Translations under genes and position numbers: made by a program
Part shown: positions 49,056 to 51,171 of the stretch, piece by piece
Position numbering within the stretch: position 1 is the stretch's first letter
Layout of the letters: the number at the start of each line of letters is the position of its first letter
Assembly (NCBI GenBank): GCA_021432605.1
Contig: MU271148.1
Coordinates: 131,362 to 195,361 of the forward strand
DNA: 64,000 nt
Direction of reading: 5' to 3'
Source: Coniochaeta sp. PMI_546
Taxonomy: Eukaryota > Ascomycota > Sordariomycetes > Coniochaetales > Coniochaetaceae
Notes under the pieces: model-generated
The model's input: the letters and a program-made list of their open reading frames with translations, nothing else
The model's database searches: none
What the model was told of the DNA's origin: nothing

Positions 49056-50274
49056 TGCGCGTGATGATGGCACGTATTCGACTGCACGATTATGATTAAC
49101 AGCAATGTACGGATCATGGGTTTACCTGGCTTTGACGACATTAATGAAGAACAGAGGGCGGCTTGATGATTATGACTTTACGGTACGGCACATTAGGGGA
49201 TCGATGGAAGAAAGCTTACCCAATCGGACGTCGTGGCGGGATGCCGGGCAGGTTGAAGAGGGAGGGTTCAGGCGCGTCGAAACATATTCTTGCCGTGTGA
49301 GCAGACTTCTGGGCAGCCTTATGAATGGCAGGACGTATCACTAGAGCACACAATTCACGCTATTATCTTAAGTTTCTGTCTTTGGCGATTGTGACAGCGC
49401 CTCAATGTAAACGTGAGGGCTGGTATGCGCAAGCGTGTTTTCCAGCAATCATTACCATCCGTCAGACTGAGATCGCACACAGTCGATATCGTTGCTTGAC
49501 CGCCCTCATCCCGCGTACCTCGCCCCCATTCTAGGCCTCTACACTACTGGTTTTTTGGTTGCGTTGTACTAGTTTGGCTCTATGGCCTCACTTTACCAGG
49601 GATCAAGACGCCATGCCTCTTTTTTTGTCGTGGCTGAAGTCGGCTGACTTTGAAATCAAACACAACAGTTTCTTTTCTTCAACGCTGCGACGGGCTGCAG
49701 GTATGAGAGCAGGTGCTCGCATCACGCAGCGATTAGGTGATTTGAAGATCACACGAACAGATGTCGATTGGACGAGTGTCCGACGTTGGCATCATGAGAT
49801 TTTACAGAATGACTGTACAGCGGGAAAGAGATGGGCGATACTGTCAGCTTGATCGTACCAGACACGGTCTCCGCCAGACTCGACAAGAGTCATGCATCCG
49901 TCTGGCGCACTTTTGAATGCCTTGCTTGGCCAGGCCAAAGAAGAGGCAGACTCGCGGGAATTGAACATCCAACAAGACTACCGCACAGGCGAGTTCGGCG
50001 AATTTGACATTCTGGGGGAGGAAAACCGGACCAAAGATGCGCAGAGCTCTCCATACGCTATACCTTAAAAACTGCACGTTCAAACTACTGGCGGCAATCA
50101 ACGCCTTCACAGTTCGGAAAGTCTGCACGTGAATCTTGTGGCCTCACTGCTGGACATCAGGCAAACGACCGCGCTTGCTCACCCCGGCTCTCTTAGCATG
50201 TGACATGCATGTTTAGATACAAACATTTCTTCCTCACATCCCAGGTCAAGCCCGAGATTGCAACGAAAAGAAGG
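49056..50274. other. Intergenic region between the 45712 gene and U2
   Basis: About 1.2 kb containing the 3' UTR of the large protein gene and the 3' flank of the U2 gene. Short overlapping frames have no motif. Nothing further is supported. Confidence 0.45.
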
Positions 50275-50524
50275 TTCGCGTCGCCTGGAGGCAGTGTAAT
50301 ACCAGGGACACAGTGGAGTCCAACCATGGGCAAGCCCAGAGGGTCGGTCTCCGGGTGACAAAAATAAGGATAATCAATTTTGGTCAATAGACCATAAAAG
50401 AGATTAAACTATTGATAGAACGTTAGCAATGAGACTGCTAATCCAGGCGTAAAGCTGTCAGGAATCTCCATACCTTTTAAGAACAGATACTACACTTGAT
50501 CTAAGCCAAAAGGCAAAGAGAGCT
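50275..50524 (-). ncRNA. U2 spliceosomal snRNA, interrupted by an intron
   Basis: On the minus strand, 50520-50474 matches the invariant U2 5' part: TTTGCCTTTTGGCTTAGATC (stem I), then GTGTAGTATCTGTTCTT. The branch-site-pairing GUAGUA is at 50493-50488. A 65-nt intron (50473-50409) follows. The second exon continues with TTTAATCT. After removal of the intron, TAAAAG (50479-50474) pairs perfectly with CTTTTA (50400-50395) to form stem IIa. Stem IIb is GGTC-TATT-GACC, the Sm site is ATTTTTG (50365-50359), and stem-loop III has TGGGC-TT-GCCCA. Stem-loop IV has CCTGGTATTACACTGCC closing with CCAGG (50306-50284), almost identical to the common U2 loop. The spliced length is about 185 nt, as expected for U2. 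The ends are estimated to within a few nucleotides. U2 pairs with the branch site in the spliceosome. Confidence 0.95.
50409..50473 (-). other. mRNA-type intron inside the U2 snRNA gene
   Basis: 65 nt with donor GTATGG, branch sequence TTGCTAACG (50429-50421) and acceptor CAATAG, with about 12 nt between branch A and acceptor. These are the same signals as in the window's protein-gene introns. It sits at the 3' edge of the 5' strand of stem IIa. Confidence 0.9.
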
Positions 50525-51171
50525 AAAGAAGAAAAAAGGAAAGGGAAACGGAGTTTCTGGGAGGGGAAGAAGATATAAATATGTGGCCAGTAGGTGGTCT
50601 GTGCATGGCTGCGTTCAGTGTACAACTTCTGCGGTAAGTTGCCCTGTCCTGCAGATTTCGTGTTTGACCGCTTTCTTGGACGTGGCAGAAAGTTGTGAAC
50701 TCCCCCCGTCCGGCAGTTAGTCCCGTGACTTCAGCATTCAGCCAGAGCACGGATTGAGCCGCTTGGGGGCGGGTTTGGCATGATGCTATTTTGGGAAACA
50801 GGTCCAAACCCCAGAGTTACTTACGCCAAGGGTGCTTCGGGGTGGCTGAACTCCTCCATTGAACATCACACCGTTTATCCAGATGAAAACAAGACGCCAG
50901 GCCCCGAGGACCTCATTTCATGAGTGTAAAGCTTGTTGGTTTGGCTGAACTCATATCTGTATCAAATCTCGTAGAACGTTCGAGATCCGTTTCCCGTCGA
51001 TGCTCAGCAGGGTTTCGACATAATAATCCTGCCTCATCTGCTTGGTTTTCACAGTGAGACGAACGAAAAGGGACAATACGGCGGGAACATGAGGCAGATC
51101 TGGCAGTCCTCAGCGATCACGACTGGTGCTCATTCTTGCTGTTCGATTGCATCTCATGATTCGGCTCCAAG
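50525..51171. promoter_or_regulatory. Divergent region between U2 (minus) and abp2 (plus)
   Basis: About 650 bp. On the minus strand an AT-rich element (ATATTTATATC, 50582-50572) lies about 50 nt upstream of the estimated U2 5' end and is a candidate TATA element. The 3' part must serve the abp2-like gene. Confidence 0.45.

Follow-up and report, generated by a model that had tools for sequence, protein, structure and literature searches.

Introns of the kind found in mRNA genes have been described in several small structured RNA genes of fungi. One interrupts the U2 snRNA gene of Rhodotorula hasegawae (Takahashi et al. 1993, as cited in PMC2586383), and others interrupt U6 in Schizosaccharomyces pombe and further fungi (Tani and Ohshima 1989, 1991; Canzler 2016, as cited in PMC10484740 and PMC5832005). 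Fungal U3 snoRNA genes carry normal spliceosomal introns within a small structured RNA, and the passage of PMC5832005 that treats them names U3 and U6 as the sole small structured RNAs for which frequent interruption is known.

The locus described here lies in a 64,000-nt stretch of DNA from Coniochaeta sp. PMI_546 (hereafter the window) and is, like the U2 gene of Rhodotorula hasegawae, a U2 gene with a short, in our case putative, spliceosomal intron. The host is a filamentous ascomycete rather than a basidiomycete, the insert sits in the loop of stem IIa, and the genome holds two split U2 copies beside a divergent intronless one. The fungal U6 introns, as those accounts describe them, are likewise of mRNA type and lie in a spliceosomal RNA close to catalytic nucleotides, but in U6 rather than U2, whereas the Coniochaeta genome has candidates in both, those in U6 being putative. 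U3, unlike U2, works outside the spliceosome, and both U3 loci here match their model without a large insertion. The Rhodotorula U2 intron reportedly sits immediately after the branch-recognition region, and U6 of that yeast is said to carry introns as well. If the Coniochaeta introns are spliced, one and the same organism would need its splicing machine to make two of that machine's core RNAs, U2 and U6, and this would be a second lineage, beside the basidiomycete case, in which both are split. An earlier interpretation of the window from its letters (the sequence-only reading) knew of no such intron in an ascomycete; this fits our searches of one open-access library, which turned up none. 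An ascomycete U2 intron may be new, of a kind known from basidiomycete U2 and fungal U6.

A candidate intron in stem IIa of U2

The Rfam U2 model (RF00004) matches the minus strand of the window from 50526 to 50270, end to end (model positions 1-192), with 126.7 bits against a gathering score of 46 bits and an E value of 2.4e-25 (Table 1). GUAGUA, an Sm site and stems IIa, IIb, III and IV are all present, and the single large insertion in the alignment is located in stem IIa. We take GUAGUA at 50488..50493 to be the element that pairs with intron branch sites, and AUUUUUG at 50359..50365 presumably has the role of the Sm site. The sequence-only reading had placed the 65-nt segment at the right coordinates, to which the minus strand had to be added.

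Table 1. Features of the U2 locus in the window (window positions) and of other small RNA loci in the genome (contig or locus positions)
Feature	Position	Strand	Basis
U2 snRNA gene including intron (locus C6)	50270..50526	-	RF00004 bounds, 126.7 bits
Exon 1, 53 nt: stem I, GUAGUA, stem IIa 5' arm	50474..50526	-	53/53 identical to C3
Exon 2, 139 nt: stem IIa loop and 3' arm, stem IIb, Sm site, stems III, IV	50270..50408	-	RF00004 match
GUAGUA	50488..50493	-	sequence and RF00004 alignment
Stem IIa 5' arm UAAAAG	50474..50479	-	6/6 pairs with 3' arm
Stem IIa 3' arm CUUUUA	50395..50400	-	6/6 pairs with 5' arm
Sm-site-like AUUUUUG	50359..50365	-	sequence
Putative spliceosomal intron, 65 nt	50409..50473	-	GT-AG ends, branch site, 63-nt homologue in C3
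Putative 5' splice site GTATGG	50468..50473	-	GTATG kept in C3
Putative branch site GCTAAC, 13 nt before intron end	50422..50427	-	kept in C3
Putative 3' splice site CAATAG	50409..50414	-	ATAG kept in C3
Upstream snRNA element GCACAGACCA at -78	50595..50604	-	GCACRGNCYA motif
TATA-like TATTTA at -55	50576..50581	-	motif comparison of snRNA loci
Conserved 3' stretch, hairpin-like part	50228..50269	-	similar stretches after U1, U2, U3, U4 loci, by eye
Divergent intronless U2	G000:C7:1661007-1661210, L003	+	66.1 bits against cut-off 46
Degenerate U2 copy	G000:C1:1616595-1616901, L004	-	56.4 bits, larger insertion, promoter element intact
Canonical U6	G000:C2, L006:1441-1670	+	pieces of 27.9 and 23 bits, below cut-off 44
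Canonical U6, putative intron 1, 55 nt	L006:1474-1528	+	GTAAGC...CATAG, boundaries by eye
Canonical U6, putative intron 2, 64 nt	L006:1557-1620	+	GTATGT...AACAG, boundaries by eye
Divergent uninterrupted U6	G000:C3:77062-77161, L005	-	63.1 bits; 3' T run
U5	G000:C11:336513-336628, L010	-	without U1/U2/U4 promoter element

Excising 50409-50473 joins UUAAAAG to UUUAAUCUCUUUUA, which regains the Rfam consensus GUUUAA and, as had been claimed, the stem IIa pairs UAAAAG/CUUUUA (6/6); the arms then enclose UUUAAUCU, the consensus form of the stem. Hand-coded helices of the spliced RNA pair at 6/6 (IIa), 5/5 (IIb), 7/8 and 5/5 (III) and 5/5 and 5/5 (IV), and its minimum-energy fold is without stem IIa. 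Counted between the Rfam bounds, the RNA is 192 nt long once spliced, a few trailing nucleotides included, which makes the earlier estimate of about 185 nt a fair one, while the insertion point falls 14 nt past GUAGUA rather than the 15 nt first counted. The suggestion that retention of the insert disrupts stem IIa holds only in part: both arms remain in the RNA, around a loop that is 65 nt longer.

The insert has GT-AG ends, a branch site and a length usual for the candidate introns of this genome, as far as a noisy survey can tell. That survey covered 264 kb (the window and 20 further stretches) and returned 54 strong candidates against 29 in a reversed-sequence control. Both its length and its branch-to-AG distance fall inside the survey quartiles (58-83 and 8-14), as do those of the homologous insert described below (65 and 63 nt; 13 and 11 nt). 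Its donor GTATGG is uncommon, being found in 2 of the 54 strong candidates (29 candidates in the reversed control). A genome search for similar intron copies, such as an introner-type mobile family would leave, matched the intron only to itself at E values up to 10; it was an insensitive search, as the homologue was missed too.

The same 65 nt might instead be an expansion segment of stem IIa that mature U2 keeps, its splice signals being coincidental. An extended stem-loop could form in principle, since the insert lies between the arms of stem IIa, and the GTATG..GCTAAC..AG pattern by itself is no rarity by chance: it occurs twice on the minus strand of the window and not at all on the plus strand, with a mean of 0.68 per shuffled strand (100 shuffles). 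What goes beyond chance is the exact position of the pattern in a U2 gene and its recurrence in a second U2 copy.

Comparison of the U2 copies

The 33.5-Mb assembly (24 contigs) contains at least four U2 loci, based on the 46 of 386 candidates that were scored: C6 in the window, C3 (126.3 bits), C7 (66.1 bits) and C1 (56.4 bits). C3, on a separate contig, carries a 63-nt insert at the same site as that of C6. The exons of the two copies are identical up to the end of stem IV (188/188 nt; 53/53 in exon 1 and the first 135 of exon 2), and over the Rfam bounds they agree at 189 of 192 positions, the three differences lying within the last four nucleotides; exon 2 of C3 folds with a z score of -5.67. 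The inserts match in 46 of 68 aligned columns, with GTATG, GCTAAC and ATAG common to both. Between these signals the bodies agree in 27 of 43 columns (63%), and because this exceeds all 200 shuffles (mean 49%, maximum 60%) we regard the inserts as homologous but drifted. Farther upstream (-400..-100), identity is at shuffle level (174/356 columns; shuffles mean 50%).

Fixed exons and fixed splice signals around a drifting insert are, at the level of sequence comparison, the signature of a spliced intron, and such a pattern would not be expected of a stretch that U2 retains. The two inserts also differ in predicted fold (-13.0 and -5.8 kcal/mol), which again counts against an expansion segment. 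We therefore reject retention, a highly improbable reading, on the comparison of C6 with C3. The exact GTATGG, GCTAAC and CAATAG, the 126.7-bit model match and the homologue at the same site in C3 all bear out the central proposal of the sequence-only reading, a spliceosomal-type intron inside U2. We are confident that the 65-nt insert of C6 is a spliced U2-type spliceosomal intron, a confidence that covers its splicing and not its origin.

From these data we infer actual splicing and the use made of each U2 copy, as well as the intron origin considered below; that C6 is transcribed and assembled as a U2 snRNP we infer likewise. The window would hold one of two near-identical canonical U2 genes, each with one U2-type intron in the stem IIa loop. 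An snRNA-type promoter would yield a U2 precursor from which the spliceosome excises the intron, and the joined RNA would fold stem IIa and assemble as a normal U2 snRNP. New U2 would thus be matured by existing U2 snRNPs, possibly helped by the divergent intronless U2 of C7; inherited U2 snRNPs would be enough in principle to sustain the cycle, and C7 might relieve the dependence. Of the earlier claim that U2 must be spliced by spliceosomes already containing it, the intron in U2 stands, given the identical exons and diverged intron of C3. The self-dependence may not be obligate, because the genome holds the intronless, divergent and well-folded C7, a copy that makes the self-dependence of U2 testable.

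An intron in this position could also act as a control switch, much as the sequence-only reading had suggested for U2 supply, with splicing capacity feeding back on the supply of U2 (and U6), which would be compatible with the spliced intron that we favour. Such a control would fit with what the canonical genes show, in that U6 and the two intact U2 copies all appear split, and in the unspliced fold of C6 the hairpin TTAGCAGT/ATTGCTAA masks the branch site. That hairpin is missing from the C3 fold, however, and the body of the intron drifts like a tolerated passenger. We think a control function improbable.

Another reading has the intron-bearing copies silent or minor and the working U2 made from C7, which is intronless, scores above the cut-off, has a fold that outdoes every one of 200 shuffles (z -4.6) and possesses both promoter element and TATA. 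Its hand-coded stems pair at 5/5 (IIa), 6/6 (IIb) and 5/5 and 5/5 (IV) with letters that partly differ, and its minimum-energy fold contains IIb, III and IV and, like that of spliced C6, no IIa. Against this, GAUCAAG, which pairs with U6, is replaced in C7 by GAUGAAC, with a weaker predicted helix I (-2.9 against -5.3), and the Rfam alignment places non-standard pairs in stems I and III; on these grounds we judge C7 unlikely to be the main U2. The canonical exons, for their part, are identical throughout the 188 nt and score 126 bits. An intronless U2, for which the sequence-only reading had suggested a search, exists, which is half of what that reading had named as a refutation; the other half, silence of the intron-bearing copy, has the perfect conservation of the exons against it, and we give a silent or minor role of C6 and C3 next to no chance. 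C7 is probably a remodelled, live paralogue rather than the main U2.

The promoter element and TATA of C7 stand at -93 and -72, against -78 and -55 in C6, about 15 to 17 nt farther upstream, and a perfect hairpin, GGGGGCTTCGAGCCCCC, occupies the extra distance just before the U2 part. One could imagine two U2 populations in one nucleus: the canonical C6/C3 form that needs splicing, and a remodelled, fast-evolving, intronless C7 form (with the GGGGGCTTCGAGCCCCC hairpin, a rebuilt stem I and a long stem III) that, perhaps with the divergent U6, would start splicing without splicing itself, as a specialised or bootstrap spliceosome core. We hold this to be unlikely. As a matched set, divergent U2 and divergent U6 were rejected, as no preference for one another is predicted (helix II comes to -8.7 with the divergent U6 and to -8.8 with its canonical counterpart, helix I to -2.9 with either) and the upstream element that precedes the canonical U6 is missing from the divergent one.

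The fourth locus, C1, appears to be decaying rather than an intact U2, despite its promoter element. It has no TTCTTAAAAG ahead of its insertion, which leaves stem IIa without a 5' arm; its hand-coded stems III and IV have lost pairs (6/8, 4/5, 4/5), and its fold is no better than shuffles (z -1.14, 11/100), although it was folded with the insert and is not strictly comparable with C7. A fifth match to the U2-core pattern, at C1:1752863 (L042), was set aside as a short fragment with no U2 match around it (the reversed-pattern control gave 2 hits). Outside the genome, the 24-base U2 core was absent from the viral contigs searched, and a 23-base core had five matches in four stretches on three contigs of prokaryote MAGs; four of the five run uninterrupted across the intron site, and the fifth is not U2 outside the core.

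U6, other small RNA genes and their flanks

Two U6 loci are present, one canonical and one divergent. The canonical gene appears split twice around its catalytic core, with a middle exon of 28 nt that carries the ACAGAGA box and the AGC triad. A B-box-like TGTTCGAATCC (10/11) lies inside its first putative intron. In 2000 random windows, matches of 8/11 turned up in 948 (chance level), of 9/11 in 124 (weak) and of 10/11 in 4; a match of 10/11 is rarer at random, but U2 genes attain it as well, and we discounted internal B boxes.

No intron-like insertion was found in the loci detected for U1 (three, scoring 48-51 bits, below the Rfam cut-off of 69.5), U4 (one), U5 (one) and U3 (two). Because putative introns are seen only in U2 and U6, the pattern fits entry by reverse splicing into active-site RNAs: an excised intron would have been reverse-spliced into U2 RNA, reverse-transcribed and brought back into the gene at a time when the two copies had not yet separated. 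This origin is the most likely one and the one we favour, although it is unproven.

All eight U1, U2 and U4 loci, C6 and C3 included, have GCACRGNCYA at -76 to -93 and, nearer the gene, a TATA-like box at -55 to -72; none of the three U5 and U6 loci does. In the whole window the motif occurs once on the plus strand and twice on the minus strand, the C6 copy counted. Such an element is no proof of activity, because the degenerate C1 keeps it too. By eye, a stretch resembling TTTCATTG, a hairpin-like part and GAGGAAGA follows the U1, U2, U3 and U4 loci and not U5 or U6. In C6 this stretch is probably a 3'-end signal, perhaps a shared one for 3'-end processing.

In this genome, RNA polymerase III may transcribe U5. 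U5 (at -27) and the canonical U6 (at -21) have AAGAAGTNAAATAACG in common, a motif that neither the 11 other loci compared nor 200 kb of sampled genome contains.

Two further matches point to a filamentous ascomycete as the host: a GEN1-type nuclease encoded in the window matches a solved chain, presumably from Chaetomium thermophilum, with 726 bits over 517 residues, and there is also a match to the Abp2 family.
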